Source of the DNA: Diphasiastrum complanatum
Taxonomy: Eukaryota; Streptophyta; Lycopodiopsida; Lycopodiales; Lycopodiaceae
DNA: 64,000 bases
Assembly: GCA_029204225.1 (NCBI GenBank)
Contig: CM055100.1
Location: 9,543,058 to 9,607,057, forward strand
Direction of reading: 5' to 3'
Of the stretch, positions 21,866 to 62,255 are shown in pieces. Every line of letters starts with the position of its first letter. Position 1 is the first letter of the stretch. The notes under the pieces are model-generated. The model was not told the origin of the DNA. It was given only the letters and a program-made list of their open reading frames with translations, and searched no databases. A program made the position numbers and the translations under genes.

Positions 21866-24254
21866 TTAACGAATGGTTCCTAAGCAGGTATCCGGTTTGG
21901 AAAAAATTGTTTTGATTTAATTTCGAAGTAAGAGTACTCCCTAGAAATAGAGTTAAATTGTGTTTGAGGATTTTATATATACATAATCCATATCTATTTT
22001 CCCTTTTTGATTTTAACTGGTCAATGGTTTTTTTTATTGCATTCTCAATTATTTCGGTCATTAAGATAGGCAACCAAAAGCTTTCAGTAAGATACTTGTT
22101 AAAGGTGAAATTTAGTTGAATTAATTAAACAAGTGTTGTTAATAAATGGAGGTAATTCTTTATTCAACACAGGGTTTTTGTCGAATACAAAGAAGTATTG
22201 GAATCCAAATTTTGTAGATTTTTCATTTTTATATACTTTCATTAGTTGTACTAAAATTAGTCGACTTTAACGAAGTAATGCTAAAGTCGATAAAATGAAA
22301 AGAAAAAATGGCTTATCATTTGCTATGTGTCAAAGGAAATTTCTAGGACCTTAGTTGATGAAATTTTTCAAGGGACCGAAAAATCTAATGGAGTTAATAG
22401 TGCATTTGTGCTATGTAATCTGGATTTCTTTGTAATCTTTGAACATCTGCATATTACCATGTATGAAGTAATTCCATAATAAATTTGTTTAATGGAATTC
22501 ATATGATGTATCATATATGAGCATGAGAATTATTGTAAATTTTGATATAATTTGGATGAATTAGGAGTGTGTAAATGCATGGATCACGTTTGAGTTGTTA
22601 GTACAGGAAAAGACTTTGTAAAGCTTATTACTAACCAGAAAAAAGTTGACAATGTGACAATAACCCATGTGTCGAGCCTTATTCCTGAATCATTTCACAA
22701 ATGGATTATTGATATCCATCGGAAATAAAAGTTATGAATTCTCCGGTGTTTTGTTTATGTGCCTATGCATGTTATAGGAAATCCAGATGAATTAATTGAA
22801 TTTTAAAATATCAGATGAGGCGATTAAGGGTTTTCTTGAAGGAAGAGCTGGTGGTATGGGACATCAGTAGATTCGAAAAGGGAATTCTAGGACTATAAAG
22901 ATCTGATTATCAATGATAAATTTGAGTACCTATTCACGATATGGAAAAAAGTAGAGTATTGGTTAATTGATGGGTATTTTGTGAAGTTTGAGGTCTAGTC
23001 TAGATCCCAATGAGAGTATCTCAGAATTTACAAAATCAGAAAACCCTTTAAGTTGTTTCTCACTTTTTAACAAGTTTAAAATTTCTCAGATACTTGATAT
23101 CAGACTAAATTTCATGTGATCTTTCTGAAGTGATATCATGTAAATTACTACTTATAGGTACAAGGTTTGGAATTTTTTGGATAGATTCTTGAGTCTTTTG
23201 TATTTTTAATTTTTTGAAACCTAGATTATCTCTTATGCACAAATAGATCTCAGATGGACGATGTTTATTGTCACTCATATTGAGATTATTTAAAGGAGAA
23301 GTCCTGAAATTGTTTTTTGGAAAGACACTTATTATTGACTTTTCAAATATTTTCATGTTATCATCTCTCTAGGTAACTTTTGTAAGAAATTGGTGAATTT
23401 CTTTAAAAAAGAAGGGTGAAGGGATGGGTAAGATTATATCAGAGGACCTGCCAGTTGCACAACTATTGGGAAAAGGCCAGTTGATGTATAGAAAGGGGAT
23501 AATCTGAAAGCATTTTCGGTTAGTTCCAGAGTATGCACTGAAAATTTTCAAATAAGAAAAATTCTCTTAGAATTGTGTGGAACAATCTGGAAGTCGAGGT
23601 GGTTTGAAATTTGAAATCATTATAAATAGTACTTAGTAAGATCGGAAGTTACTAATCCTAGTTTGTCAAGGATAGAAGTGATTTTGATCCCGGAATGTAT
23701 TTATTGAATCAACCTAATCTTAAGTGGAGTTCTAGGATCGGGGAGGGGTTGGTTCAGAAGAAGAAATTTTGTGGTAAAATGTAAGTTGGGTTGGAAACTC
23801 ATGAGTGGATGTGTTCCCAGTCTCAAAGATTTTCCAAATATGTTATTTACTCATGAGAAATAGAATTCTTCTGTAGCTGAGTTACAAGATTCTCAATGAG
23901 ATATGAGAGTAACATATGTGAATTTTGCAGGAATCTGTCAGATTAGAACATATGTGTATGTATTGGGTCATAGATTATGTACATGATTAATCTTATATGA
24001 ATCTACTATGTATTCTTGGTTACTATGGTTATTGATGCACTTAACCTAGTCGGTGATTAACTTAAAAGTGATTTGGTTAAGGATCTAAATGTGGTATTGT
24101 ATTGTACAATTAAAATCTGCCCTAAACATTTGATATTTTTGAATTAACTTGAGCGATTGGATTACTCCTATGGAAAGTTGATTGATGTGATGAACATTGT
24201 GAAGAGAATTAACTAGAAACTATTTCTTTATATATGTTGCTTATAACATGCATG
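21866..24254. other. AT-rich, unrecognised; host of LTR insertion
   Basis: About 2.4 kb without a recognisable gene. It continues at 26692 on the other side of the compact LTR element, so the original interrupted block is about 3.3 kb (21866-24254 plus 26692-27592). It may be an old transposon, but no motif supports a family. Confidence 0.35.
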
Positions 24255-25013
24255 TGTAGTGGGTTTCTTTCCTTGCCTAACCTGAATTCAAGATCTAGTC
24301 AATCTAGCATCAAAGTGACGGAGTAAGTTGTCACGCATAGGTTCATTCCCATGAGAGCGATAATATAGTTCTGATTTCAACATGAATGGAGGATCTAACA
24401 CTAACATCCATTAACACTAAGCATTAACACTACATCCATTAACCCTACTTCCATTAACCCTAAATCCACAACAATGATAGAAACTTACTTTTCTCTCTCT
24501 CCCTTTCTCTCTCACAAAAAGCATAAGAAATAGCAATCCCAATAATGATCAAATCCAACAATTAGCAAAATCCAAAGAAAGCATGAGAAATGGAGGACAA
24601 GAGAGGAAGAGCAAGGACATTCATCAATCCATTTCTAAAGAGAACCAATCTGCTTCATTGAAATGAGGAAATGAACATGAGGAGAAACTCGAGTTGGTCC
24701 CTTTTTATAGTAGAGAAGAGGACCCTGGCCTTTGAATCCTATTGGTCCAGTCTTGCCTCTCTTTTTATTCAAATTTTAAAAAGTGTGGGAACCATCAAAA
24801 TTGGAGGGAAACCAACTTTATTCACTAACTTGACATTTAGGCCCTGTGACATTATAAGTCCCGCAAAAAGGCCTAAAGTCCTTTATTGACTTTTAACTAA
24901 TCAATCAAATAACTATATGGTCATTGGGTTGGACTTACACATGTAGGGTGCCAAAGCGCTCTCACTTATTAACTAGGGTTAGGGTTGCCTTGGGATCCGC
25001 AAACCCTCCAACA
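24255..25013 (-). repeat. LTR (3' copy of compact element)
   Basis: 759 bp, starts TGTAGTGGG and ends CCTCCAACA on the + strand. It carries a short CT-rich stretch (about 24490-24515) at the place where the related LTR at 34681 has a long (CT)n tract. The two LTRs of this element differ by scattered substitutions and a few small indels, so insertion is fairly recent compared with other elements in the window. Confidence 0.9.
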
Positions 25014-25062
25014 GTATCCCCCACCAAAACTGGTGGCTTCCGACGACACCTGCAATATGCAA

Positions 25063-25885
25063 TTATTGGGGACTTTTATCGGCTTCACGCCGAATCTTAA
25101 TTAAATGATACTGCACCTTCTCCATAAATTCAAGGTGTGCAGTATTGAAATCCAAATTATGCGACAGGAAACAATGGTGAGCTCCGACAATCCACTTGAA
25201 AGTTGTCCATGAGGTGAAGCGGGATTCCCAAGAGCCTCCCATCATGGCCGCACAGAAATATAGTCGAGCAATCGGCAGCTGATCTTTGATTTGCTCTGAG
25301 GCCATCGACTTATTTGGATTAAATGCCAGGGTAGGAAGACAATTGTCCCATTTGGTTGCCACTGATGCCAACAGAGTTAGATCTTTTGAAAACATTGCCG
25401 ATTGTCGCACCGTTGGATCCGGAGAGTGGACATACTCTCTCTGATATGCTTGTAAGGCCCGGTGGAAATCCACTGAAATATTCCAGTTATAAGACTGGTG
25501 GATGATTGGCCAATTGGGCGTATGGATGGTGATTTTATCCATAGCCAATCCCAAATCTTTCCATTTTTGTCTTCGCGGCATTGGCACGTAATAAGGGTCT
25601 ACCCGCAACTGGCGAGGGCTGGCGACGTAACTCCTAATTGATTTTGAAGTTTTCTCAAAAATCGTGATTCTCCATGCCGCTTGCTCTCCCAGTGCAAGTA
25701 TTTTGTCCAATTCTTTGTCGGCCTTGATCTCGAAGGTCTTAAATTTGAGAACCCATCCACCACGCGAGGACTCATGTGGATGCTGCTTTAAGAAGGTCTG
25801 GATCTGGTCCTTGATGCTGATGGGCCTTCTGAATAAATGGCTTGTCCTTGATGAGGATGGACCCGCTTGTACTGCTAATGCAAGC
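25063..25885 (-). CDS. Unknown ORF inside compact LTR element
   Basis: A single uninterrupted - strand frame of about 274 codons occupies most of the 938 bp interior. It lies in the element's sense orientation, between primer-binding site and polypurine tract. No ATG follows the upstream stop at about 25886; the first candidate start is a TTG at 25710, so translation may use a non-AUG start, readthrough or splicing, or the start was lost. The product is soluble-looking, Trp-rich and basic at the end, with motifs such as SSRGGWVLKFKTFEIKA, VDPYYVPMPRRQKW, VDFHRALQAYQREYV and MMGGSWESRFTSWTTF. No zinc knuckle, DSG/DTG protease or RT box is seen. It may be a divergent gag or a captured host sequence; function unknown. 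Confidence 0.6.
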
Positions 25886-25927
25886 TAACCATCAGCCAAA
25901 CATGCTGCAAACTGAAAAATTGGTGTA

Positions 25928-25950
25928 GCTCCCCGGCAACGGCGACAAAA
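25928..25950 (-). promoter_or_regulatory. Primer-binding site, Asp-tRNA type
   Basis: The - strand reads GTCGCCGTTGCCGGGGAGC just inside the right-hand LTR. It is one base from the TGGCGCCGTTGCCGGGGA site of Athila/Tat-type plant gypsy elements. It establishes that the element runs on the - strand. Confidence 0.8.
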
Positions 25951-25951
25951 T

Positions 25952-26691
25952 TGTAGTGGGTTTCTTTCCTTGCCTAACCTGAATCCAAGATCTAGTCAAT
26001 CTAGCATCAAAGAGATGGAGTTAGTTGTCACGCGTAGGTTCGTTCCCATGAGAGCGATAGTATAGTTCAGATTTCAACATGAATGGAGGATCTAACACTA
26101 ACATCCATTAACACTAAGCATTAACACTACATCCATAAATCCTAAATCCACAACGATGATAGAAACTTACTTTTCTCTCTCTCCCTTTCTCTCTCACAAA
26201 AAGCATAAGAAATAGCAATTCCAATAATGATCAAATCCAACAATTAGCAAAATCCAAAGAAAGCATGAGAAATGGAGGACAAGAGAGGAAGAGCAAGGAC
26301 ATTCATCAATCCATTTCTAAAGAGAACCAATCTGCTTTATTGAAACGAGGAAATGAACATGAAAATCAACTCGAGTTGTTCCCTTTTTATAGTAGAGAAG
26401 AGTACCTTGGCCTTTGAATCCTATTGGTCCAGTCTTGTCTCTCTTTTATTCAAATTTAAAAAAGTGCGGGAACCATCAAAATTGGAGGGAAACCCAACTT
26501 TACTAACTTGACATTTAGGCCCTACGACATTAAAAGTCCCGCAAAAAGGCCTAAAGTCCTTTATTAACTTTTAACTAATCAATCAAATAACTATGTGGTC
26601 ATTGGGTTGGACTTACACATGTAGGGTGCCAAATCCCTCTCACTTATTAACTGGGGTTAGGGTTGCCTTGGGATCCGCAAACCCTCCAACA
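25952..26691 (-). repeat. LTR (5' copy of compact element)
   Basis: 740 bp, direct repeat of 24255-25013 with the same TGTAGTGGG start and CCTCCAACA end on the + strand. A short internal deletion near the CCATTAACCC repeats accounts for part of the length difference. Confidence 0.9.
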
Positions 26692-27592
26692 ACATGATTT
26701 ATGAATCATCGAGATTCATCAGAATAGCTATGTGCATAGAATATACAAAAATTCTTGGTAGAGTATTTTTCAGATGAGAATAGACTTAGTCCATTAGTGA
26801 TTGTATCCCAGAGGGCTCAATTGGATGGCGAATCATAACGGTTCCAAGAATGATAACCGAATTTTCAGGAGATTTAACAAAATTTTGGATATCTAGAATT
26901 CAGCTCTGGACAGTAATCTAAAGTTTTTTACTAGATGGAGACAGTTATTAGTACCATTTTGGTATGCTTTCTGGCTTTGGAATTTGGATAGCTCACATTG
27001 TAGTTAAGAATCCAATTTGAGACATATTATTAAAATATGGTACCTCCAAAGTGGAGAAGATTTGAAAATGATTCTTATATATTTCTCGAGTTGTGTATTA
27101 AATATAAATTCTAGTATCCTTTAGGAATTAAGTATAGTTTGAAATTCTAGAGAAATTATGATTGAAAAATCATAAAACTAACTATTTGCGATTGATGAAT
27201 AATAAATGAAACTTAATGGTGGACTAGCCTCCGATGTACTGGATTGTTGGTTATGCCTCAATTCTATTCTATGTTAAGGCTTGTTTGTAACTAATCACCT
27301 TGAGGGGGCCCAAAAACTCTTATTGAGACATATGGAGTAGTGCATGTACATGTGATTGTCGTATGCATGTGGAGCACACAGGAGCTATGACCTATTCATA
27401 GTTGGATTGCACGGGGATTGCATGAGTTCATGCACAAGATTCTACTCTCTATATATTGGGGTAGAGATTCTCTTGTCGACAACTTTTGGTTCAAATTACC
27501 AGTTGTTCTCTTCTCCTCAAGCATTCACATGGCATGGCGATCCATGACTGATCTAGTTTTGGACGGGTGGTTTTGCTCCTTCATGTCTCCTA
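26692..27592. other. AT-rich, unrecognised (right part of interrupted block)
   Basis: Continuation of the sequence interrupted at 24254. Short open frames at 27356-27636 show no known domain. Confidence 0.3.
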
Positions 27593-28410
27593 TGTTGGGA
27601 TTCGATGTTTGTGTACCTCGCATCAGAGCGAAGTGAGCAGAATCCTTGGTGCATGCAACTACGTCTATCAAAAAGATCGATTCCATAGCCATGCACGAAT
27701 TATCTAGGATTTAGATTTAGCTTTGCGGAAGCATTTTAGGTGAGGTGATTGGAACGACAAATTAACATATGCTATCAGTCACATGAACGGTTTAATCTAC
27801 GAATAAGTTTATCTGTTGACAATGAACAATCAGAACATGAATAAGATGAGCATTCAAGATGACATGCACGACCGAGATTATTGGAACAAAAATTATTTAG
27901 TCTTGAAGAAAATACAGTCTGAATGCATACAAAGTCACGATCTTCTTGAAACCATACTCTGTGATAACAGAGAGGAAGATCAAAGCAATTGCGCTCTGAA
28001 AGCTTGACTTGATCGACTTTTGAGCTAATTCAATGTTCAACTATCAACGGAGCTTAACGTTGTTCATGGAGCTTAATCGAAGCAACTGATAAGTCGACAT
28101 ATATATATACATGGCTAGCGAATTAAAAGAATGGTTAATATGTACTTTATAGATAGGATTAAGGAACTATGTGCTATTGGCAGGTGCCCTCAAACAATAT
28201 TTAGAGATTCTGTCCAGTTGTGATGAAAGTAATGTTGAGACGCCGATTAATTGATATCGACTTTTGGAGTTGATTTGTCAATAAATCGGACAAGTCGGGT
28301 AAGCCGATATGTCAGACAAGTCCCATAAGTCAGAACCAGTCGGACTCCCCGATATGTTGGCCAAGTCGGGCTTCCCCAATATGTTAGCTGAGTTGGTTGA
28401 GTCGTTAGGA
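27593..28410 (-). mobile_element. Copia LTR, inverted copy of 17.2-18.4 kb
   Basis: TGTTGGGATTCGATG at 27593 is the reverse complement of the LTR end at 18420-18434. The next 550 bp match 17864-18434 in reverse, for example the stretch around TTTATCTGTTGACAATGAAC. The distal part (28254-28406) has CGACAAGTCGG-like short repeats. No primer-binding site complement precedes 27593. The start of the LTR is missing; at about 28410 it joins copia pol in the opposite orientation. Confidence 0.8.
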
Positions 28411-28434
28411 CACTGTAAACGGCTGCACAATACT

Positions 28435-28762
28435 TGACAAATCCCAGAAAATTCTAGCTTTTGGGAAAAGGAGTGACAATCTTTACAAACTCAGCCGCTG
28501 CTACTCCAACAATCGAGCTCTTCACACTTCCACTTCTAAATCATCTGATATGCTTTGGCATTTTAGATTAGGCCATTAAAATTTCAATAGTATTCAACAA
28601 ATGTCAACTCAAGGACTAGTACAAGATTTGTCTACTATCAGCAAGCCAACTTCTCCATGTGAAGGCTGTATAATCAGCAAGCATTCGAGAAGTCCTTTTA
28701 TTTTTTAATCAATTCATACTTTCAAAGGCTTGCTAGAACATGTGCATAGTGACATTTGTGTC
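28435..28762 (+). pseudogene. Copia GAG-pre-integrase fragment
   Basis: The + strand reads ILAFGKRSDNLYKLS, SSDMLWHFRLGHxNFNSI, GLVQDLSTISKPTSPCEGC and LLEHVHSDIC, the zinc-binding GAG-pre-integrase domain and the first Asp of the integrase catalytic core. It stops exactly at the SDIC motif, where foreign LTR-like sequence begins at 28766. Confidence 0.85.
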
Positions 28763-28765
28763 GCA

Positions 28766-28842
28766 GAAGCGAAAACACACTATTCAGTGTCGCAAAAGTG
28801 AAACTATTTCTTTTTCATTTTTGTCTTGGTATTCGCGAAAGC
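28766..28842 (+). repeat. LTR-like fragment matching 2255-2330
   Basis: About 77 bp nearly identical to the block after the gag relic at 2.25 kb (shared ACACTATTCAGTGTCGC, with A or G at one site). It separates integrase start from RNase H in a copia relic and probably marks a deletion or recombination junction. Confidence 0.65.
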
Positions 28843-29516
<674 letters not shown>

Positions 29517-30003
29517 TGTTGAAATTCGATGCTCGGCCTCAAATCCATTTATTAATGAGCATCTTGAAAACTTTACAGATCCTAGAAAAATAGAAGGCTC
29601 AATTTTTTTCCCAAAAGATCGAAAAATCCGGTATCGGATTTTTCCGACCTTATGTTACTCTTGTCAAAAAAAACAATTTTTTGACCCTGGATCGGATCGG
29701 ATCAAGGCAAAAATTATCCAGGCGTCTTCGACCCTGGATCAAATCAAATCGGATATGATTTGTCCGATCCTGAAAAATCCGATCCTATACATATTTTTTG
29801 ACCCAGTGTATATTTCTTGACCCTTTGTATAGTATCCAATCCTATGTAATTTTTTGATACTATCGGTTATCTGTCCCCAACGGCTTTACATTGATGTCCG
29901 CCAACTTTGTACATGCATTTATGGCATAAAGACGGCTGTAATAACTATAGGAAATTCAGTTGTAGATACTTTTTCTAATATCTCAAGTCTGGTAATGTGT
30001 TAA
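29517..30003 (+). mobile_element. Copia 3' LTR, end uncertain
   Basis: It starts TGTTGAAATTCGATGCTC right after the polypurine tract and matches 17186-17235. It contains a perfect hairpin GAAAAATCCG-GTAT-CGGATTTTTC (29621-29644) and several GATCGGAT words. TAGTATCAGCATTATC at 30005 resembles a decayed Met-tRNA primer-binding site and suggests the end, but the expected CAACA terminus is absent. Confidence 0.55.
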
Positions 30004-30659
30004 TTAGTATCAGCATTATCATGCTCAACAAACAACCTCATCAATAATAGGAGCCTCAATAGTGATAGTAGTACTGCAGGCTAGCAGAGCAATCATGCAT
30101 GTAGTAGAAGATCTTGTCTTGTCAGAAATTAGAGCAGATATGTAGAAAACAAAGGCCATGCCTTCTTGAACAAACCTACAATATGGTTGTGCTCTTCACA
30201 GAATATGACTCACTTGAATACATCAATAAGCTTCATGAACTTACGATCATGCCTTTGCTTGGCGTTGGACTGAGCATGAGTTAATTCAGTGAAATGTGCA
30301 AATCGTAGCCCATCCATTAGTAGCATGGTCTATTGGAGGCCCTCATAAAACTCTCCATAAAGTTTTAAAAAATATATTCTATGCTCAACAATGAACATAT
30401 CTATGTCAAACTTCATGTGAAAGTAAAAGGGAATAAGAAGTCGACATGTCTGGTCAAGAATGAGACACGTGTGTCCACACATGTTAATTTTTGAGAAAAT
30501 TTCAATCTTAGAGTGTGGATTGCTTGATCAAGATATTTTTTTCAAATTTAGATTTCGATTATCATCAAGTGATTAAGTTTTATAGATATATTTTATCGAT
30601 TTCTCATTTTTTTTGAAGTTATTATTAAAAGCAAAATTAGATTCAAAACTTGAATTCTA
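30004..30659. other. Unrecognised, possible decayed - strand coding
   Basis: Reading 30460 to 30190 on the - strand gives a mostly open protein-like stretch (FDIDMFIVEHRIYFLKLYG, LRFAHFTELTHAQSN) interrupted by stops. It was not matched to any family by eye. Confidence 0.25.
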
Positions 30660-33599: not shown

Positions 33600-34680
33600 T
33601 TACTAATTTGAGTAAAAAAATCAGTTAACAGGTTGTTTTTGACAAATCTGAAAAAACCATCTTTTGCCCATCTAAAAGGGGTCGATCTGGCAGAGATACA
33701 ACTATGGAAGAACTGGCGAAGGTTCTTTTGGCGAAGTTTGAGATTTTTGCAGCTTGGCGAGGGCTAAAATGGATTTTTTGAATAATATAGATGGAACTAA
33801 TTTTTGCCAAACTCAAAATTGATGAATTACTTTATTTGAAGACCTTAGAAAAATTGGCAAAGACTGAAGAGAGATATTGTTATTTTTGCAAAAATTGATA
33901 GCTTTTTGACAAAAATAGGTGAAAATCACAAATAACCTTGACTTACTAACTCACCAATCACCAGAAATAATATGACGGACTGACTGATGACACTAGCAAA
34001 GGTTCAAGTGAAGGTTCCTCTTAGAGAATTGATATTGTTGTAGAAAGGTGTAAAACTTTTAACAAAAGGTTACCATAAACTAGTCGAATGTTCACTTGGC
34101 TTTCTATTTTTGAAATTAACCTTTGTCAATCTAATTATAAATAGATCTGAGTCAGTTCTATATACAGCTAAATAGATGAATAATTGCTTTTAGTATTTTT
34201 TTTATTTTAGAGTCTTTTCACTATTTTTGGCTATTTTTTTTCAATTTCTAAAAAATGGCTGGGAAGTAACCTTTGTCCTTCAAGTTGCAACTTCACTGCA
34301 TCAAGACAGTCTTGCCTACAAGTGGGCAAAAGTTGGTTGCAAAGAAAAAAAATTTTTATCAGTGTCTAATGAAAATTTTGTCTTTTTTGTCACCAAATTG
34401 GAGAAAATGAATGATTTTTGTGATTTCTCTTATTTTTTTAGATCCAAATAGATCTCAGGAATGGTGGTCTGTCTGAACTTTTTTGCTCATTAATCAAAAT
34501 AGATTACAAGAAAGAAATCCACACAAATCAAGTAGAATTCTCTCCGAAACAAATCCTAAATGTACTTTAACACTACGATGACAAAACCGAGATGTCTGAA
34601 TGCAAGCTAACATTCGTCCATGAATCAGAAATATGCTAAAAATGAAAAATTGGCATAGCTCCTCGGAATAATGTCAAAAT
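33600..34680 (-). mobile_element. Gypsy 5' leader, relic
   Basis: This corresponds in reverse to the untranslated leader at 54233-55350. Both carry repeated words of the type GGCGAAGGTT or TTGGCGAGGG and a shared stretch around ATCCAAATRGATCT. A decayed primer-binding site (GCTCCTCGGAATAATG on the + strand, 34659-34674) adjoins the LTR. No gag follows on the left; the element is truncated at about 33600. Confidence 0.7.
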
Positions 34681-35438
<758 letters not shown>

Positions 35439-35469
35439 GTGTATGAATCTACATCTATTAGATTCAAGC

Positions 35470-39105: not shown

Positions 39106-40846
39106 GGGGAATGCCACTACATGACTACTTTCCAGCATTAGGACCGCAAAGGAAGCAGTTGTGGTTCGTTTGCGGCCAATTGAGGCCATTTCACCACATT
39201 TTTTGACCACAATGGACCGCAAGGCAACCATTTTTTTATCAATCAAAGCAACCTAGAAATTCTTGTGAAAACATTTATGACATGGCTTACTTCCTTTTTA
39301 TGAACTCAATGGTTTTTGTAGAATTTATGTCTCTTAAGAAATACACTATATCAGATATAGGGTAATCCTAATCCTTTACTGTTTACCTTTTGATTTATAT
39401 TCAATTCTGATAAAGGTGAGCAACCCTTTATAAAAGTCTGATAAAAGTGAGCACCTTTGACAACCGTGGGGGAGAAGCTATTGTAGCTTTCGCAACTCCA
39501 TACCTTCATCATTGCTTTTATGATCTTCGTTTGTCCATTATTTTTCTGAATAATTTGAAGCTGCAAGTTTGATGAATCATGTCTGAATCTGGATTCTGAA
39601 TTTTCTCATCAGAAGTCTCGAGAAGTGAGAAGGACACCAAGCTAGTTTCATCTTCATTACCCACGTTTTCTTCTCAAATCATATGAAGGAATGGCTGTTT
39701 TGCTAGTGGTACAATATATCATGAGTCCAACTGCAAATGCAATCTAGCGTTGGAGTTCCTTCATTGGTGCAGATATTTGAAAATTTACCCAAATTGTCGT
39801 GGGCTGTAGCTGGTTTAATATCATCTTTTCTTACCAAAAGTATACTCCTGTTTGCGTTATTGTTGGTTTCAACGTCCTTTTACCGCAGGCTCGCTGTAGA
39901 ATTATCATCCTGGAGGTGGGCTGGTTATGAACGTTCAACGTTGCAGCTTGATATTTGATTCCTTGAGATCTGATTGACGGTATGGTGACTCTATTCTTTG
40001 ATGATGTGATTTTTCCTGTCAGTAAAGCAGTTGGAAATGGTAGTTAACCAGATGGCTATTGAAAACATTTTGAGGTGAAGAGGGAGAAACTAGCGGGAGG
40101 CATATGTATTATCACTATCAGTGTGGGATAATTCACATATTTTTTGATCTTAGCGAGCCCTCGATCAGTTTTCTGTTGACATTTACACAATCTGAGATAA
40201 AGAAATTATATCAATGATAGTCGTTATGGATCAACCAAATACTAATGCTCGAGATCATGGAGGTCTATAAGAAAAGTTGACTTATAAGTAGCATTACCAT
40301 ACTGACAATGATGTTGCTTAAGTAGACGATGCCACTTGTTAAAGATCAAACATCCTTCCTTTGAATCAAGTTCTTCTACGTTTTGCTCTACTGTTTCTAC
40401 TAAAAAACTGGAAGCTGCTCTGGAATTCTTCATTGATGCCTCTGATTGTTGTAAGTTAAGTGACAAATGTAACCTCCTAGAGGTGGTTGACGTTGCCAAT
40501 CAGCACCTACTTCGGATATTGTTGATTTATAAGTAGATAAATTTTTGGAAACTTTTTGACATTATGCAAGTCTCACTTGGCAATTGATGTTGATTTTGAG
40601 GAGCTTTGACACCGGGAAAGTTCTCTGGGTGCACGATGATGCGTGAATTTTATTTATACTTTCTTGATTCTCCAAGTTCCGGATTCAGCATTGAAAACTA
40701 CCTCGTATTTAATTTCAATTTTGGATTGGTTACTTGATTTGTACCTGCAATGGGATCTCTAGCATTTTGGGTGTAATATCCAAGCTTATTTGCATTCGTT
40801 AAATTTGTGGTTACAGGAAAATATCGCATATTTTGAAGAAAAATTC
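39106..40846 (+). other. Upstream of LRAT gene 1; probable leader intron
   Basis: From about 40030 to 40816 the sequence is recognisably related to 60740-61490, the intron before LRAT gene 2 (for example CTGGAAGCTGCTCTGGAATT versus a similar stretch near 61195, and CTCTGATTGTTGTAAGTT). A splice acceptor TTGTGGTTACAG ends at 40816, and 30 bases of leader precede the ATG. No matching leader exon was found further upstream. Confidence 0.5.
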
Positions 40847-41587
40847 ATGGACCTTTTTTCTCATAGCGTTCAGAGGGAGGCATTGCAGCCAGGTGATCAT
40901 ATATACTCTTGGCGAAATGCATACATCTTCGCACACCATGGAATATACGTTGGTGATGGAAAAGTGATCCACTTCACAGGTGGTCGGAATATTGAAGAAT
41001 TGGCCGGATGTCGCTCGTTTTCGAGTGCATTAACCTCAAGTTCAATACCTGGCTCCACTACATTTCCTTGTGAAATATGTGGCACTGACGCAGAAAGCCG
41101 GGGAGTGTTGAAGTCCTGCCTTGACTGTTTTCTGTCTGGTTTTCCATTGTCCCGTTTTGAATATGGCACGAGCAGCGCAACATTTATTGCCAAGCTTCGG
41201 GGCGGAACATGTACAACTGCCAAATCTGATCCTTCAGAGCTTGTCCTGCACAGAGCCAACTACCTGCTTAGCATCAATGGCTTCGGTTGTTATCACGTCT
41301 TTCGAAATAATTGTGAAGATTTTGCTATTTATTGCAAGACTGGACTACTTGCGATTGACAGAAATGCGATCGGAAGTAGTGGACAGGCCACGTCTTTTCT
41401 AGGTATAATATTGGCTGTTGCTGGCTCCATTTCTTCGTGTTTCAGTAGGTCAAACTTCTGGGGCTTGGTTGCTTCATTTGGAGCATACAGCATGAATAGG
41501 TATATGAGCGATATAGGTGTTCGAAGTGATGTTGAGAAAGTTGATGTTGAGGATCTAGCAGTGAATCGTAGTCGGCAACACGCATAA
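40847..41587 (+). CDS. LRAT/NC-domain protein, copy 1
   Basis: The chosen ATG at 40847 gives 246 residues, because it aligns with the start of copy 2 and follows a splice acceptor at 40816. An earlier in-frame start at 40790 would lie in the intron. The LRAT (NlpC/P60 superfamily) domain covers roughly residues 13-175: LQPGDHIYSWR, HHGIYVGDGKVIHF with His31 and His42, and NNCEDFAIYCKTG with Cys156. These are the residues used by LRAT-type acyltransferases and thiol hydrolases. A Cys-rich insert (CEIC, CLDC) and the conserved tail DIGVRSDVEKVDVEDLAVN follow; a hydrophobic stretch (about residues 186-215) could anchor it to a membrane. Plant members are poorly characterised and the substrate is unknown. 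Compared with copy 2 it differs at the N-terminus (MDLFSHSVQREA versus MGLLSNRIEREE), normally the most conserved part. Confidence 0.9.
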   Translation: MDLFSHSVQREALQPGDHIYSWRNAYIFAHHGIYVGDGKVIHFTGGRNIEELAGCRSFSSALTSSSIPGSTTFPCEICGTDAESRGVLKSCLDCFLSGFPLSRFEYGTSSATFIAKLRGGTCTTAKSDPSELVLHRANYLLSINGFGCYHVFRNNCEDFAIYCKTGLLAIDRNAIGSSGQATSFLGIILAVAGSISSCFSRSNFWGLVASFGAYSMNRYMSDIGVRSDVEKVDVEDLAVNRSRQHA

Positions 41588-47168: not shown

Positions 47169-47800
47169 TCAATTCAGCATCCCGAAATCTTCTAAGATTT
47201 TTTGGGTATATCTGGATTGTTGAAGATATAATTTACCTCCCTCATAGTCCCTGTCAATCTGTAAGCCAAGGTAATATCTGGCTTCTCCCAAATCTGCAAT
47301 CTCGAAATGTTTCGAGATATCATTCTTCACTTCAGCAATAAGCTTCTCACTCTTGCAGAGTATCAAAGTGTCATCCACATACATAGATACAATGATGATC
47401 TTCCCATCTATAATTCCTACACAGACATTGGAATCAGCCATTAGTGGCTTGCATCCTACGGATTTCAGGGCTTGATCTTTCTTCTTGTACCATTGTCGCA
47501 CTGACTGCTTCAGACCGTACATACTCCTATGCATTCTGCATGCATAAGTAGGAAGTGAATTCGAGATATAGCCTGGGGGTTGATCCATGTAGACTTCTTC
47601 GTCCAGCTCACCATGCAAGCAGGCTGTCTTCTCGTCCACAATGTGAATTTTGAGATCATAAGCAGCTGCATATGCAAATAGTATATGTAGGGACAAAGGT
47701 TTCACGATAGGAGAGAAGGTCTCATAATAGTCAATACCATATCTCTGAGAGAATCCCTTCATCACTAGTTGTGCTTTATACTTTGAGACATCTCCATCCG
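47169..47800 (-). pseudogene. Copia reverse transcriptase
   Basis: A single open - strand frame of about 198 codons covers most of RT: KGFSQRYGIDYYETFSPIVK, ACLHGELDEEVYMDQPPGY, YGLKQSVRQWYKKKD and VSMYVDDTLIL with the catalytic YVDD, then DISKHFEIADLGEARYYLGL. Upstream KLKYGPDGDVSKYKAQLV (47770-47815) is in another frame. This is the best-preserved RT in the window, but the frame is shifted at both ends. Confidence 0.9.
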
Positions 47801-47921
47801 GTCCATACTTCAGCTTGTATACCCATTTTCATTTTATAGTCTTTCGCTTATTTGGTAATGGCTGTAATGTACATACCTGGTTCTTCCTCATGGATTCCAT
47901 CTCCTCATTCATGGCTTGGAT

Positions 47922-48654
47922 TCATTTGTCCTTCTCTGGACATTCAATTGCTTTCTCGAATGTCTGTGGTTCACCATTGAATCTACAGAACTCTTCTGAT
48001 GTAGAAGCTGAGCTGCCTGGCACATATTTTGTTGGCGCTCTTTGTTCTCTTGTCGATCTAGGAGATCCTCCTGAAACTGCAATGCCTTTGCCTTTATCTA
48101 CTCTGCTAGGTCCAGAATCATTTCGGTTTACATGCACTATAGTCGTAGGCTGCCTCTCAAAATTTTCATCGTTTGATTCGTCACTCGAATGAGATGCGAA
48201 TCGAACATCTTCATCTGAATGTTCGTCCTCTGCTCCCTTTGTCACAGTTGGTAGATCATAGTACTGTCTTCCAAGAATTTCATAATTGACAGGATCATCG
48301 TTGGCCATCATTCTGCTGTCATCGAATTTGACATCTCTGACTGTCTTCACAGTGTTTGTCCCTGTAGTATGACACATTATTGTCATATCCTACAAGATAT
48401 CTCTGTTCCACTTTCTCATCAAGCTTCTTTCAAAGCTTATCAGGAACATGTGCATAAGTTGCACAGCCAAAGATAATGATGTGAGTCAAATTGGGTTTTC
48501 TACCCCACCATAATTCGTGTGGTGTCGTGTGAGGAACACCAGACTTTCCTGTCCTGTTCTGAATGTAAGCAGCTGTAGCTACTGCTTCAGCCCACAACAC
48601 TCTTGGAGCTTTCGAGTAGGCCATCATGCATCCGGCAGCTTCCATTAGGGTCAT
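47922..48654 (-). pseudogene. Copia integrase end and linker
   Basis: At 48654-48430 the - strand reads EAAGCMMAYSKAPRVLWAEA, TAAYIQNRTGKSG and HIIIFGCATYAHVPDKL. A frameshift follows, then the charged linker 48386-47922 (VKFDDSRMMANDDPV, DSGPSRVDKGKGIAV) with STREQRAPTKY, the usual pre-RT stretch. A short gap at 48655-48807 corresponds to NGVVERK-like integrase sequence with stops. Confidence 0.85.
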
Positions 48655-48807
48655 GTCCTTTCTTTCTTTCTACAACACCGTTGTGCTGCGGTGTGTAAGA
48701 GCAGTCCTTCTATGAACAATACTACGATCATTGTAGAAGTCAGTGAATCGATTTGAGATGTATTCTCCACCTCGATCTGTTCTGATATGCTTTACTTTAT
48801 TACCAAT

Positions 48808-49443
48808 TCATCTTTCTGCCCAATTCACATACTCTGTGAATTTGTCAAATGCTTCTGATTTATTGTGAATAAAATAGACTCTGGCAAATATTATGTAATC
48901 ATCAATAAATTTAATGTAATATTTTGAGCCTCTTACTAAGATCACATTGAAAGGTCCACAGATGTCAGAATGCACTAACTCCAAAATCTTAGTCGTTCTG
49001 TAGGAGTCCTTGACAAAGGGAGTGCGTGACATCTTACCCTTCAAACATGCATCACATGTCATCGAACTGGTTGCATTCGAGATGCTCACCCTTGTGATTG
49101 CTCCATGATGGCTTGCCTGATATAGTGCCATTGAATTCATATGGCATAGTCTCCTGTGCCATAGAGTATCTGGCGAATCATCATGAGTTTCATGCACTTG
49201 ATCTGTAGGTAGGCATACCTTCAAGTGATACAGGTTGTCTTTTCTTCTTCCTTGAGTGATGAGCATACTGGTACTTGCATCAACAATGTTGCATGCTTCA
49301 TCTGAGAATATCACACGCATTCCTGCATCAGCTATTCTTGCCACTGATAGCAAGTCCTGCTGTAGTGTAGGCATGAATAGAACATCTTCGAGTCGTTTGT
49401 CTCTACCGTTTGTGTTGAGCCATAATGAACCAATACCATTCAC
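48808..49443 (-). pseudogene. Copia GAG-pre-integrase and integrase core start
   Basis: An open - strand frame of 211 codons reads VLFMPTLQQDLLSVARIADA, DTLWHRRLCHMNSMALYQAS, CDACLKGKMSRTPF and LELVHSDICGPFNV, FIDDYIIFARVYFI. It contains the His-His/Cys-Cys zinc site and the first two acidic residues of the integrase DDE triad. It overlaps the protease frame at 49440. Confidence 0.9.
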
Positions 49444-50450
49444 TTGATGTTTTGATCCATCTCCAAGAACGATAAATCTTGATGGATCTGCACTTTGGAA
49501 ATCAGACTTGATGTAATGAAGTGTGAGGTAGCTCCTGAGTCAAGGATTACCTCCTGTGTGTCAAGTGTAGACACTGCACACATATCTGCACAGATGTAGG
49601 CGGTTGAAGTACTATGATTCGGTCCTTCTTTGTCTTTTTTTGAGCTCTCTAGATCCTCAACATATGATGAACTATTATTGTTCTCCTGTCTGCTTTGAGT
49701 TGATTTGTTTCTTGGGTTCAGGCGGCAATCCATGGCTGCATGACCTTTCTTGTGGCAGTGGATACACTCAATTTTCGGATTTAGCCAATATGAATCGACA
49801 ATATGTCCTTTGCATTTGCATCTCACGCAGGTCTTCTTGTCTTCACTCTGTTGTTTCGACCTTCCTTTGTTCTTCCATTTGCCTTTCTGGTTCCTTTTGC
49901 TTGCTGATCACAATCCTGCTTCAATCTGACTCCCTCTTAGGCTTGGATTATTTTTTTGTCTTCTCCTTGTTGTTGTAGAAGGCTTGGTCAGAAGCATCCT
50001 TGTAAATCAAGGTGCTCTCGAGTCTCGACTTCTTCTCAAATCTCGACAATTGCCTTTTTGAGTGTCATTGTAGGATCCTTTGCTAGCAGTGTTCTAGTTG
50101 TCTGGAAGGATCTTGGTAAGGCTCTCAACAGATAAGTGAGCTGCTTCTCTGCTAACACTGCATTTTCTGCTCCAAAATTGTGTAGTGAAAGGAATAGATC
50201 CTTCATCTTCCTAATAAAGGAAGTGAGGTCTTTGTCGTTCCATTGTAGGTTTGTAGTTTTGTCAGCTGATCTTCAAGCATCATTATCTGACTGCATGATT
50301 TCGTCTGAAATCTTGTGAGTAGAGTATCCCACATTTCTTTTGCTTTACAGGTCAAGTGTCAGGCTATCCTTGATGGATGATGATAACAAGGCTACTGCCT
50401 TGTCATTCTTCTCCCTCCATTCGCGTAGCTCCTTGCCTGTTGTTGTAGGA
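49440..50450 (-). pseudogene. Copia gag, zinc knuckle and protease
   Basis: From 50450 the - strand reads REWREKNDKAVALLSSSIKD, AKEMWDTLLTRF-like and NAVLAEKQLTYLLRALPRSF in shifting frames (gag). It continues into a proper knuckle CIHCHKKGHAAMDC (CX2CX4HX4C) and the aspartic protease motif VILDSGATSHFITS within the frame 49826-49440. The gag start expected next to the LTR (a FEKLNGEN-type sequence) is missing. Confidence 0.87.
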
Positions 50451-50904
50451 TTCTACAATCCTTCAGAGTGTAGACAAACACTGCTGATCTACGTTAACAG
50501 ATTAATATAGCATTCAACAAAATCAAACCAATGTGCCGAATTGAATAAAGAAGTGAATCAAATGCACGAATAATATCAGACAAAAATTTATTCGAGATCA
50601 TGCAATCACATAGAATAATATGTGCATAATAGCTACAATATTATCTATTGATTTTCTTGATTTCTAGGACTACATGACATATCCACGTAGTGCATTGACG
50701 TGAGAGAAATACAGTTCTCTCGTGTCTCACTTACTAGCAGACTTCTGGATCTACAGATCTTCTTTCTCAAAATTGTCTCGCTCATAGGCGAACATGTATT
50801 TAGTGTATTTTTGTCTTACAGTATTATGCATCAACCAGAAAATATATAGTTCGCGAATTTTTCGTGTCGTGTTGTGTAACTTCCAGATTAGAAAAGATTA
50901 AGCA
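50451..50904 (-). mobile_element. 5' LTR of copia element, 3'-truncated
   Basis: A 454 bp direct repeat of 45724-46183, beginning TGCTTAATC on the - strand at 50904. Its inner end at 50451 joins gag directly: there is no TGGTATCAGAGC-type primer-binding site and no gag start. A deletion has therefore removed LTR end, primer site and about 60 gag codons, so this copy cannot be reverse-transcribed normally. Confidence 0.8.
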
Positions 50905-51732
50905 AAAAGGTATGGTATGTTTAATAACTGACGTCGAAATATCCTTCAGGTCTTGATAAGTCCATGCAAAGCAATCTCGATACTTAATAAGTAACAAGCA
51001 GAGTGCTTGATACTATTCAATATTAAGTTGTGATCCAACTTGTACAATCTTTTGTGGTTCTTCTGGTTCAGCAAGATTCATTGGTTGTGTCCTAGCTGGG
51101 CCATCGTAAACATCTTTCGAGTCTGGCACGTGTTCTTCAGGTTCACGATGTGCTTTAGGTAACATGATAACCACATCATCCAATGTATAACGTTTAAAAT
51201 GTTCGTGCATATCATGCTGGACCACATCTGTTTGTTCCTTTTTGAAAGGACTTGTCTTGGATCTTCGCTTAGCTTTCTTAGCAGGAATTGATCGTGGAGG
51301 TGATGACTTCCGAGACCATGATATCTTGCTAGAATTCTGACTTGTAGAATCATCCTCGACTTTTCCTTTGTCTTTATCCAGTAAGGGTGGCACATTCGCT
51401 GAATCAATCTTTTGAGGAGGATTTTCCCATTTCAGGACTATATTATAATGTTGCTTGGCTTGTCTCTTCGTCATTGTCCCTGTGATCCTGTCTTCCTTCA
51501 ATATAACTGCTTTGGGCAGTTTTATTGTTGGTTCACCAGGAACATTACACACTCCAAATCTGGTCGGATCCATATGATTTAGAATTTTCTCATCTGTAAG
51601 TTCTACATTGTCATCATAAGTCAAGGCATGACTCACAGGAATGAGGTCATCTTCAATCGGATATGGTATAGGTTCCGTTGAATGGAAAAGTGATCGGTGT
51701 ATCCAAGGTTCGATCCAATAATGAAATCTCAC
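50905..51732 (-). pseudogene. Gypsy protease-RT linker, cut by copia insertion
   Basis: The open - strand frame 51732-51013 reads KILNHMDPTRFGVCNVPGEP, TIKLPKAVI and a basic, Ser/Lys-rich linker ending QKIVQVGSQLNIE. After one stop it continues LLLIKYRDCFAWTYQDLKDI, the start of gypsy reverse transcriptase, up to 50905. There the copia LTR begins. The rest of RT, RNase H and integrase are not found on the other side of the copia element. Confidence 0.83.
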
Positions 51733-51827
51733 TCAAATCTGACTGATTATCTTGTTGACACATATATCTTGCTGTACAATCAATCGTTGCAAGAGCTTCA
51801 TTCCAGTTGACAGTATCCGTCTGAGAA

Positions 51828-52688
51828 TCATAATGAACTTCCAAATTTTTTTTCTGGTCGGTCACAAGTATGATCCGTTGTTGATGAATCATCATCGTCT
51901 TTTTGAACCATTGATTTGATAGTCCAAGTTGCAAGATCAACTTTGACTGCACATTCACGATTTCCAAAAGTGATTTTCTCGGTACCCCAATTATGAATTA
52001 CTTGCGCATCTCGTAACCATGGACATCCCAATAGGACTCGATAGACATTTGGTGCTTCTGGTAAATCCATTATTACAAAAGTAATGACGAACTGTACTCC
52101 TGCAATTCTGACATGTATATCTTCAACCATTCCTCGTGGATGAACTGTCGTTTGATCAGCTAGCTTAATAGAAAAAGTCGCAGGCTTGATCTTTGTAAGG
52201 CCCCATTTTGCACATAGCTTTGTAGAAATCAGGTTAACTCCTGAACCACCATCTATCACAGCTGCTTTCTTAGGAAATTGTCTATGCTGTATCGACAGAG
52301 TGATATTCTTTTGTTCACTTTCCCAAGCGGCACCGACATGGAGTACTTCATTAGATTCTCCAAATCCAGCACAAAAAAGTAGCTCTTGATGGACTTCTGC
52401 TTCTGCTTGAGCTAACTTTTGCGCTAAGACTTCTTTTGCTTTTGGCACCAACTTCAGGAACTCTCCCAATGAAATATTGATCTTGCTAGATAAAATATTC
52501 ATGAGCAGTTCTGTTTGCGGTGCTTCCGGTTCAGTCATCTTGAAGGATTCTTCATGATGATGCAACTGATCATTCATATTTGTACGTGAATTTCTTGGTG
52601 GCTGCAATAGTGAAGAACGAACTTCGGCTGTTGCTTTAGCAGCTTCAAGCTCCTCTTCTTCTTGCAGATGTTTAATCCACTGTCTCAT
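51828..52688 (-). pseudogene. Gypsy aspartic protease region
   Basis: An open frame of 286 codons on the - strand contains AAVIDGGSGVNLISTKLCAK, the retropepsin active site in the IDGGSG form common in plant gypsy elements. VLLGCPWLRDAQVIHNWGTE, the second conserved block (LGxxWL), follows. The N-terminal part is Glu/Ala-rich linker after the gag knuckles. This segment is intact but shifted relative to both neighbours. Confidence 0.87.
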
Positions 52689-52877
52689 ATCCTGATATCT
52701 TCTTTCTTATGCATGAAGATTTGGATAGACTCCAGATGCTGTTGGGATATCGATTAATGGTATAGAATCAGCAAGTACTGGATCCGCTACTGGTTCTTTT
52801 TGCTTCTGTGCTTTGGTGACCACCATCAACAATTGATTTATTTTGAGCTACTGGTCTTTGCTTGATTGTTATCAAAT

Positions 52878-54232
52878 TTACAGGAGCTGTAGCTGGTGGT
52901 GGCTTCGGTCTTGCTGGATAGTCTTTATAGCAATGCCCATAACCACAGTCATGACAGAATGGTACAGATTTTCCTTTATTTGGACATTCTGCAACTTTGT
53001 GAAAGCATCCAAGTGGTGCTCTGGTCCAGTTTCTAGATGCTTGTTGTTGCGCGACAACATAAATAGCATACTATTCTGAAGATCCACCTTCTTGATCATC
53101 ACCATAGTTCCATTGCTCGACACTTCTGTACGATTTTGGTTCCATCAAATTGGCAGGAGGAGCGGAGTGCTTTGGTGGGGCAGGTAAGGCTAAACGTTTC
53201 GGGTATCCAAGAGCAGATTGTCGAGGTCTAACTGTTGGATTTTCTCCATACTGTGGTTCTCGATATCCCATTTGGACATACCGTTGCTGAATTATCTGAG
53301 GATTGAAGTTGCAAAAAGCAGTCTCATGATCAGGCAAATGGCATACACTGATTTCCATTCGTTTTTTCAATTGAGGACAATCATTCACTGTGTGATTTCC
53401 TGTACAAATAGAACACCAGACATTTTCCTTGGTAGAAAAAGTCTTCGCAAACTTTTCAGGTTCCTTGTTCACTTTTCCATGGAAATCTTCCAATGCTTTG
53501 ATCTTTTCATCAAATTGCAACTGCAACTTTTCCATTTTTCTACTAGTTCTTCCCGAGTTTCTCGAACTCATTGAGCATCATTTCTGCAGTAGCATTAACA
53601 TTTGTTGATGCAATAGTGGTGGATGTTGTAGTATTCTGCCTTGTTGTATAAGGCAACATACTGATATTCGGCTCATCATCTGAATCTTCATCCTCCTCCC
53701 GAATTGCATCATCCATAGCATTTTGCAAGAGTGCATACTCATTATGGCGTTCCAACTCACGTCTGATCCGTTCAGGTAAACCTGACAAAAACCACATAAT
53801 CATGGCATTTTCGTTAATTAGCTTAGGTTCACACTCAGATCTGAGGCGTTTCACCTGTTCAATGTAATCTCAAACCATTTCCCGCTTTCCCATTTTAATT
53901 TTACTCAAAATTAGGAAAGGGTCTTTCATAAACTTCCGAGGTTTGAACCGTGTGATAAGGGCTTGTTTAACAACCTCCCAATCTGTACGTTCAGTTTCAT
54001 CTTGATTATAGTACCAGTCTTGTGCTGCGCCTGTTAAGGTCATAGGAAAAAGCTTAAGTTTATCTTGAGGGAAAATTTTGCCATAGACTTCACAAGATTC
54101 AACATAGATATGAAGAAATCTAACTGGATTAGTTAACCCATTGTATTTGGGTAGATCCAAACGGGGTGCTCTTCTAACAATGATTGGATTGACTTCCTGA
54201 GGAGCACCTCCAGGGGTAGCCATCTTCACCAA
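52878..54232 (-). pseudogene. Gypsy gag with zinc knuckles
   Basis: Three - strand frames in order. 54232-53870: APRLDLPKYNGLTNPVRFLH, LTGAAQDWYYNQDETERTDW, LITRFKPRKFMKDPFLILSK. 53854-53543: MIMWFLSGLPERIRRELERH, DDAIREEDEDSDDEPNIS. 53571-53071: MEKLQLQFDEKIKALEDFHG and CSICTGNHTVNDC. A second Cys-rich knuckle (CHDCGYGHCYKDYP) follows at about 52960. The start could be the ATG at 54232 or the next one (MATPGGAPQEV). At least two frameshifts separate the parts. Confidence 0.88.
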
Positions 54233-55350
54233 TTAAGATCAAGCAGACAATGAGATTGGATCTAGATTTTTCAATCAAAACTATCTCAGATCAGATCTGC
54301 TAGATTTATTTCACTTTCCAAGAATCTGATTTCTATATCGTGAAAAAGATTTTGAAATTCAATCAATCGATACTTCTGAAAAATGAAAAATTTCTCAGAA
54401 TCCAAATCAAAATGTATCGGATTTGACCCAAATTTTGACAGACTTGATCTGAAAAATCAAAACCTAAAAATAGTACTGGCGAAGGTTCAATAGTGCTATT
54501 TTGAGAAAAAAACTCTCTGATCAACTTTTCTGACAGTTTCTAGAGAAATAACCTTCGCCTAACTCTCAGATTCAAGATCTGACAGAGATAAAACTAGGGT
54601 AAATCCGGCAAAGGTTTCTGACACAAGAAAATACAGTTTCTGTAGTTTGGCGAGGGTAAAAATATACATTTTTAATGATCTGGACAGAAAGAATCTTTGT
54701 TGCACTCAAAAATAGTATTTTACTATAAATAGAATGTTTTGAAAACTCGACAAAGGTTTTGGCGAAGGATCAAGAGTAAAACGGGTATTTTTGCAAAAAA
54801 AATTTATTTTTTTAGCAAAAATATGGCAATATGAACTGATCCTCTAAAAAACCTTCTATTTTTGGTATTATTCTTTGCCGACCTAGCAGTAGATAGATCT
54901 GAATCACACCTATGCACAATGAATAGGACGAAGATTCTTTTTCTATATTTTTAGGGTTTGGTGATTTTTTTTGTGTTTTTTGACGGTTTTTCTAATGTTT
55001 CTGGAAATCTGCTGGGAAGGATTGTTCACCCTTCAAACTGAAGGTTTTGTGATCAAAATCGAAGGTGTTTGCAACTTGACGAAGGTTTCTTGAAAGAGGG
55101 CAAAAAGTTATCAGTTCTGATGACGATTTTTGTCTCTTTTTGACCAAAATCTGGCAGATTTGACCGATTTTGTTGTTTTTTCTGATATCTCAGATCCAAA
55201 TGGATCTTAAGATTGGTGATCTGAATAGCTTTCCCTGTTCCACAATCAAATTAGATTTCAAACAAGCAAATCCACTCAAATCAAGCAAAATTACTCCCAA
55301 ACTAACCCTAAATGCATATCTAACACTATTCATGCAACGACAAGATGTCT
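54233..55350 (-). mobile_element. Gypsy 5' untranslated leader
   Basis: About 1.1 kb between gag and LTR stub, related to 33600-34680. It contains repeated words GGCGAAGGTT, GGCAAAGGTT and TTGGCGAGGG (near 54477, 54607, 54651, 54760 and 55077 on the + strand). Long leaders are usual for plant gypsy elements. The primer-binding site is gone. Confidence 0.7.
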
Positions 55351-55406
55351 ACCAAATCCCTCTCACTTATTAACTAGGGTTAGGGTTGCCTTGAAACCCT
55401 CCAACA
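55351..55406 (-). mobile_element. Gypsy LTR stub
   Basis: About 56 bp matching the outer end of the LTRs at 24950-25013 and 26630-26691 (TTAACTAGGGTTAGGGTTGC then CCCTCCAACA). It is fused directly to leader sequence, so most of the 5' LTR has been deleted. Confidence 0.75.
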
Positions 55407-61490: not shown

Positions 61491-61520
61491 GACACCATTT
61501 GAAACTTGGGAGTAGGATTC

Positions 61521-62255
61521 ATGGGCCTTTTATCAAATAGAATCGAGAGGGAGGAACTGCAGCCAGGTGATCATATATATGCTTGGCGAAATGCATACAT
61601 CTATGCACACCATGGGATTTATTGTGGTGATGGAAAAGTGATCCATTTCACAAGGGGAAGGAATGAAGAACTTGGAACTGGCACCTTCTTGGATTCATTG
61701 ACCTCAAGTTCACGACCTGGCCCCACTAGCACCACTTGCGAAATATGTGGTACTAATGCAGATAGTCAGGGTGTTCTGCTGTCCTGTCTGGATTGCTTTC
61801 TGTTGGGTTGTCCACTGTACCGCTTTGAATATGGCACGAGCTTCACGACATTTGTTGTCAAAGCTCGAGGCGGTACATGCACAACTGCTAGTTCTGATCC
61901 TTCCGAGCTTGTTCTTCATAGAGCCTATTACCTGCTTAACAATGGATTTGGTTGCTATCACATCTTTCATAATAATTGCGAAGATTTTGCTATCTATTGC
62001 AAGACTGGATTACTTGTGACTGAGAGAAATGGGATTGGAAGGAGTGGACAGGCCATATCATTTTTAGGTGCCCCATTGAGTGCTGTTGTCTCTACTCCTT
62101 TGCGTTTCCTCATGGTAAACCCTCTGGGCTTAGTGGCTGTTACAGCTGGAATATACAGCTTTAGTAGATATGCAGCAGATATAGGTGTTCGAAGTGATGT
62201 TGCGAAAGTTGATGTTGAAGATCTAGCTGTCAATCTTGGTTGGCAGCGCTCCTGA
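61521..62255 (+). CDS. LRAT/NC-domain protein, copy 2
   Basis: 244 residues from the ATG at 61521, 30 bases after a splice acceptor. MGLLSNRIEREELQPGDHIY is the start seen across plant family members, so the five extra upstream codons were not used. The LRAT catalytic set is His31 and His42 (HHGIYCGDGKVIHF) and Cys153 (NNCEDFAIYCKTG). RGGTCTTASSDPSELVLHRA and the tail DIGVRSDVAKVDVEDLAVN are family hallmarks. A hydrophobic segment (about residues 175-205) suggests membrane association. The biochemical role in plants is unsettled; animal relatives transfer or hydrolyse acyl groups through a thioester on Cys. Clear duplicate of 40847-41587, in the same orientation. Confidence 0.93.
   Translation: MGLLSNRIEREELQPGDHIYAWRNAYIYAHHGIYCGDGKVIHFTRGRNEELGTGTFLDSLTSSSRPGPTSTTCEICGTNADSQGVLLSCLDCFLLGCPLYRFEYGTSFTTFVVKARGGTCTTASSDPSELVLHRAYYLLNNGFGCYHIFHNNCEDFAIYCKTGLLVTERNGIGRSGQAISFLGAPLSAVVSTPLRFLMVNPLGLVAVTAGIYSFSRYAADIGVRSDVAKVDVEDLAVNLGWQRS

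Follow-up and report, generated by a model that had tools for sequence, protein, structure and literature searches.

The compact long terminal repeat (LTR) retrotransposon at positions 24255–26691 of the window, i.e., the 64,000-nucleotide stretch of Diphasiastrum complanatum contig CM055100.1 analysed here, is in our assessment, at a probability of roughly 0.93, a non-autonomous element derived by internal deletion from a plant Ty3/gypsy family that possesses an additional open reading frame (ORF) and whose longer copies measure about 11 kb. The first-pass annotation of this DNA, which had suggested a passenger of the local gypsy family, was right in spirit, given that the element descends from such a family and is non-autonomous.

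With paired TG...CA LTRs, a primer-binding site (PBS) and a polypurine tract (PPT), the compact element is an LTR retrotransposon. These components, annotated at first pass as complete and as surrounding an interior of merely 938 bp, are all in place; the strand, on which that annotation was silent, is minus. The 5' LTR (740 bp, TGTTGGAGGG...CCACTACA) runs from 26691 to 25952 and forms a direct repeat with the 3' LTR (759 bp, 24255–25013, minus), the identity between the two amounting to 93.0% by blastn with gaps counted and to 95.1% (704 of 740 aligned bases) by MAFFT. The 5' LTR is followed by the spacer ATTT and the PBS-like sequence TGTCGCCGTTGCCGGGGA (together 25930–25951, minus), presumably a primer site of the tRNA-Asp type; four other copies compared with it deviate by at least two bases each, e.g., TGGCACCGTTGCCGGGGA in loci L013 and L021. 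Directly before the 3' LTR lies the purine tract GGTGGGGGA as part of the PPT region (25014–25035, minus; GGTGGGGGATAC), and six of the seven other copies compared have an identical PPT, with one change in L014. The target-site duplication of the window copy is imperfect, four of five bases being shared (GCATG/ACATG).

The resemblance of the LTR and the leader start to gypsy relatives elsewhere in the window, likewise proposed at first pass, was also found, with matches of 86% for the LTR start (55406–55352), about 69% for the LTR body (35379–34955) and 77% for the leader start (34685–34624). The region 34100–35440 (minus) contains an LTR that has diverged (about 69%) and a leader (67%), both related to the same family, the LTR being interspersed with long GA/GT simple repeats, and the region 50400–55406 (minus) contains a relative of the parent family with a gag piece (89%) and a protease region (83% at the amino acid level). 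Other features of the window comprise fragments resembling copia-type pol and gag at 47169–49907 (minus; frames read by eye) and two gene frames with a lecithin retinol acyltransferase (LRAT) domain at 40763–41587 and 61503–62255 (plus), which share about 77% DNA identity.

The sole long frame of the interior extends over 25063–25884 on the minus strand and comprises 273 codons and a stop, the first three residues being derived from leader DNA. Of 5000 first-order Markov sequences with matched length and composition, read on both strands, none contained a frame of 273 codons or more (maximum 270, mean 108), which upholds the single 274-codon frame of the first-pass annotation. Neither reverse transcriptase (RT), protease (PR), integrase (INT) nor gag was found in the 273-residue translation; Pfam and NCBIfam gave zero matches, a PDB search returned one match at chance level only (E 0.27), and comparisons with plasmids (tblastn) and with viral contigs yielded nothing; the structure predicted from the single sequence was too uncertain for use (mean pLDDT 43.8). 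These profile and structure-database searches are in line with the earlier impression of an interior devoid of enzymes and of a frame devoid of recognisable motifs. The supposed lack of an ATG holds for the first 101 codons; the first one is found at residue 102. Because no ATG precedes that position, the compact copy is predicted to make, probably, no functional protein.

What the interior represents becomes evident from much longer copies in the same genome. The copy at C21:45260742–45271950 (11,209 bp) has its 5' LTR in locus L021 and its remainder in the adjacent L011, where the end of the gag region, a protease region, RT, RNase H (RH), the integrase zinc-binding domain, the additional ORF (ORF3) and the 3' LTR follow one another. 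The order of RT, RH and INT in L011 was taken from Pfam matches and position (RT, 3.2e-24; RH, 5e-20; integrase zinc-binding, 7.8e-11; integrase core, sub-threshold at 0.038), and the protease was called solely from its resemblance to a window frame for which aspartic-protease matches stayed sub-threshold. The N-terminal gag piece found no match in this copy, whose flanks do not share a 5-bp target duplication. The copy at C12:25767426–25778095 (10,670 bp; L022 and L014) contains gag, PR, RT, RH, INT and the later part of ORF3 in order and is bordered by a perfect TTAAC target duplication, with no match to the N-terminal pieces of ORF3. No fetched copy is complete, and these two bear frameshifts or stops; taken together, they make up the arrangement LTR-leader-gag-PR-RT-RH-INT-extra ORF-PPT-LTR. 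As read from these domains, the parent family has the Ty3/gypsy order PR-RT-RH-INT, and its domain content suggests that it is autonomous. The first-pass annotation had held that a clear gypsy gag match, with complete elements elsewhere, would speak against its view; much longer elements do exist, but each of the two longest is devoid of one part and the frame is not gag.

Perfect 5-bp target duplications were observed in three of four other copies (L012, L013 and L022/L014), the exception being L021/L011. Two of these have also undergone internal deletion: L012 (7.85 kb) has its RT fused to ORF3, and in L013 (6.5 kb) the leader runs into the end of integrase. Both have the same LTRs, leader start and ORF3 end as the window copy but have kept more of the interior and have different breakpoints. 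Judged from these sequences, internal deletion is not rare in the parent family, and among the fetched copies that of the window represents the extreme. L012 and L019, with 99.8% identity over 2259 bases, probably constitute one locus seen twice; the family copy at this place has landed in the ORF3 of a related family (about 70% DNA identity), with a TGTGG target duplication in L012.

The 273-codon frame is the C-terminal part of ORF3, a sense ORF situated downstream of pol and ahead of the 3' LTR. The frame stays open for 476 codons in L011 (L011:7559–8986), where the part corresponding to the window is preceded by a coiled-coil-like segment, which is suggestive only, given weak matches to the 476-codon frame (E 0.06–0.8) and reading of the sequence. 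The same upstream ORF3 part precedes the frame in all ten fetched loci that were mapped besides the window and its segmental duplicate (L009 and L011–L019). For the N-terminal part of ORF3 (251 aa in L009), no Pfam match was obtained. A CERK_C match to a 124-aa L011 piece overlapping this part (E 0.003, below the cut-off) was treated as chance. In three ORF3 pieces tested, no transmembrane segment was detected, the maximum 19-residue Kyte-Doolittle means ranging from 0.78 to 1.16. Between integrase and ORF3, L011 contains a separate ATG-started frame of 59 codons (L011:5206–5382, plus), which has one strongly hydrophobic stretch (19-residue mean 2.6), a lysine-rich tail and sub-threshold Pfam matches only (best E 0.0044); similar stretches occur in L009, L014, L016 and L013, and the first 21 residues or so are kept in L009, L014 and L016, with the frames shifting afterwards.

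The compact copy differs from these relatives by one junction. Its leader nucleotides 1–77 (25875–25951, minus) are common to the longer copies, with 89.6–94.9% identity to the leader start of six others, and nucleotide 77 is joined directly to ORF3 coding sequence at 25874/25875 (minus), with one base (G) being assignable to either side. The junction was placed by means of the leader sides of L012, L013, L017 and L021 and the ORF3 sides of ten loci. In the relatives, both sides lie kilobases apart (C21 copy, 8,749 bp; C12 copy, 8,215 bp; each lacking a part), and the true parent may be longer than these distances imply. An in-frame TAG is present in the leader just upstream of the 273-codon frame. 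Both the missing early ATG and the missing enzymes are explained by a deletion that fused the leader to the middle of ORF3.

With regard to the origin of the compact copy, the single junction between leader nucleotide 77 and C-terminal ORF3 is visible in the alignments, and it leaves only the tail of ORF3 open. The intervening sequence was probably lost either through a template switch in the course of reverse transcription, so that the copy would have integrated already shortened, or through illegitimate recombination after integration. The LTR identity of the window copy (95.1%), which is similar to that of L013 (95.6%) and L012 (97.0%), is compatible with both routes and does not separate them. 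In the relative at 50400–55406, the 5' LTR is cut at about nucleotide 60 and joined to leader nucleotide 75, hence at most 3 nt from the compact breakpoint at 77; two independent breakpoints in such proximity may be a matter of chance or may mark a fragile or template-switch site.

The count of family copies that had been proposed at first pass was made by a DNA search of the 1.74-Gb assembly (5176 contigs), in which 40 of 10,112 candidates were scored and 45 matches were listed. Among the latter, 38 hold LTR together with frame sequence and end at query positions 1590–1621, i.e., at or just before window position 25875, and five are short pieces. The junction is crossed by two of the 45 listed matches only, the window copy itself (best match) and a copy at C9:9638943, which lies 71 kb downstream on the same contig and carries a further internal deletion. 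Since the flanks of this second copy agree with those of the window copy on both sides (99.9–100% and 99.4–99.5% identity), it arose from the same insertion by segmental duplication rather than by inserting anew. The duplicated segment encompasses window positions 23055–30033, with 99.4–100% identity including the intergenic flanks. Among the 40 scored of 10,112 candidates, the compact junction thus likely goes back to a single insertion, and there is no sign of an amplified compact family.

These counts bear on the reading of the compact form as an independent family of non-autonomous miniature elements with an accessory gene of their own, mobilised in trans by the gypsy parent. The complete LTRs, PBS and PPT, the open frame and an LTR divergence similar to that of two other measured copies would all suit such a family; however, its junction occurs in just two of the 45 listed matches, which represent one insertion duplicated with its flanks, and the changes private to the compact frame (seven nonsynonymous, five synonymous and no stops, at a random expectation of 1794:530:133) include slightly fewer nonsynonymous ones than random and are too few to show constraint. 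Zero stops in 12 private changes are expected about half the time, and the counts do not show upkeep of the frame in the compact copy. We consider this reading very improbable.

A different picture emerges for ORF3 as such. The comparison of Ka and Ks across copies, which the first-pass annotation had put forward, was performed on 12 non-identical frame sequences (window plus 11; five exact-repeat loci were dropped, and the loci L001, L002 and L020, which comprise the window copy and its duplicate, did not enter), representing about ten insertions in view of the near-identical pairs L012/L019 (99.8%) and L007/L009 (99.7%). Mean dN was 0.049 and mean dS 0.088, resulting in a ratio of 0.56, and stop codons were present in eight of the 12 sequences, those of the window, L011, L016 and L018 being free of them. 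In the sister family, where ORF3 contains stops as well as the insertion of the L012/L019 element, the two longest aligned blocks share 57–76% amino acid identity with the frame. The synonymous distance to this family is saturated; therefore, no dN/dS was formed, and raw proportions were used both for the comparison (pN 0.21, pS 0.88, ratio 0.24; 175 of 181 codons, six read as stops being skipped) and for a neutral control with the same 189 changes placed randomly, in which the median ratio was 0.77 and the lowest 0.53, with none of 500 replicates reaching the observed value. A ratio of 0.24 against a neutral minimum of 0.53 indicates that ORF3 is a selected protein across two families.

In intact parents, ORF3 would most likely act as a soluble accessory protein at the env position, a function deduced from sequence features. 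The more far-reaching proposal, which we put forward tentatively and regard as possible rather than probable, is that ORF3 is a so far undescribed accessory protein composed of an N-terminal domain, a coiled-coil-like middle and a conserved C-terminal domain of 270 residues, with no membrane segment in the tested parts and no Pfam family, which would be under strong purifying selection in at least two families of this genome and would have a non-envelope function at the env position. We do not claim ORF3 as unpublished, the literature searches not having been made by ORF sequence. The new accessory protein considered at first pass is right in part: the frame is the C-terminal part of a third ORF of the parent family, but it is not special to the compact element.

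Besides internal deletion, reverse transcription of a spliced subgenomic ORF3 RNA, as known for retroviral env, might have brought leader and 3' ORF together in the manner of an env-type splice, and such splicing is reported for barley Bagy2 (PMC7264820); however, whichever side the shared base is assigned to, the borders as read do not have the form of a GT-AG or GC-AG intron, the acceptor would fall within ORF3 coding sequence, and the fusion supplies no start codon, which makes this origin scarcely credible. Similarly slight is the chance of a host gene fragment captured by the element, or of a divergent gag, both contemplated at first pass, in favour of which the missing early ATG and the missing Pfam match can be cited: gag is refuted by position, the gag-like frames of the family being separate and far upstream (L012:3741–5194; zinc-knuckle motifs read by eye, Pfam gag E 0.06, below the cut-off), and capture is unsupported, the frame following the same ORF3 part in all ten loci mapped and recurring in the sister family, although a remote host origin of ORF3 itself may be conceivable.

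Seen as an internal-deletion derivative, the compact element can be compared with known groups of plant retrotransposons. The arrangement of the parent family, in which a sense ORF stands between gag-pol and the 3' LTR, resembles the aORF-3S class of gypsy elements (Athila, Bagy2), and env-like ORFs take the position between pol and 3' LTR in other plant elements as well, according to PMC7264820. In contrast to that class as described there, ORF3 has no transmembrane segment in the three pieces tested (19-residue maximum 1.16) and no Pfam family above the cut-off. With LTRs, PBS and PPT but no enzymes, the compact element itself is reminiscent of LARD, TRIM and TR-GAG elements, and it would count as a LARD by the Inpactor rule (no domain and 2000 bp or more), as given in PMC6022998. 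Unlike LARDs and TRIMs, it shows no sign of amplification among the 40 scored of 10,112 candidates and keeps a coding remnant of the extra ORF of its parent; TR-GAG elements have gag alone left, and the frame found here is not the family gag and has no Pfam match. Retand elements, according to PMC11963269, have a long region between pol and 3' LTR with antisense ORFs and a transposase-28 domain in 57 of 104 cases, whereas ORF3 lies in sense and shows no transposase-28 domain.

The lead provided by the compact element is hereby closed: the element most likely arose by deletion, and its longer relatives account for the open frame. A residual, mild interest lies in ORF3 of the parent family, which, with no curated family and no envelope-type membrane segment where tested, is conserved between two families of this genome.
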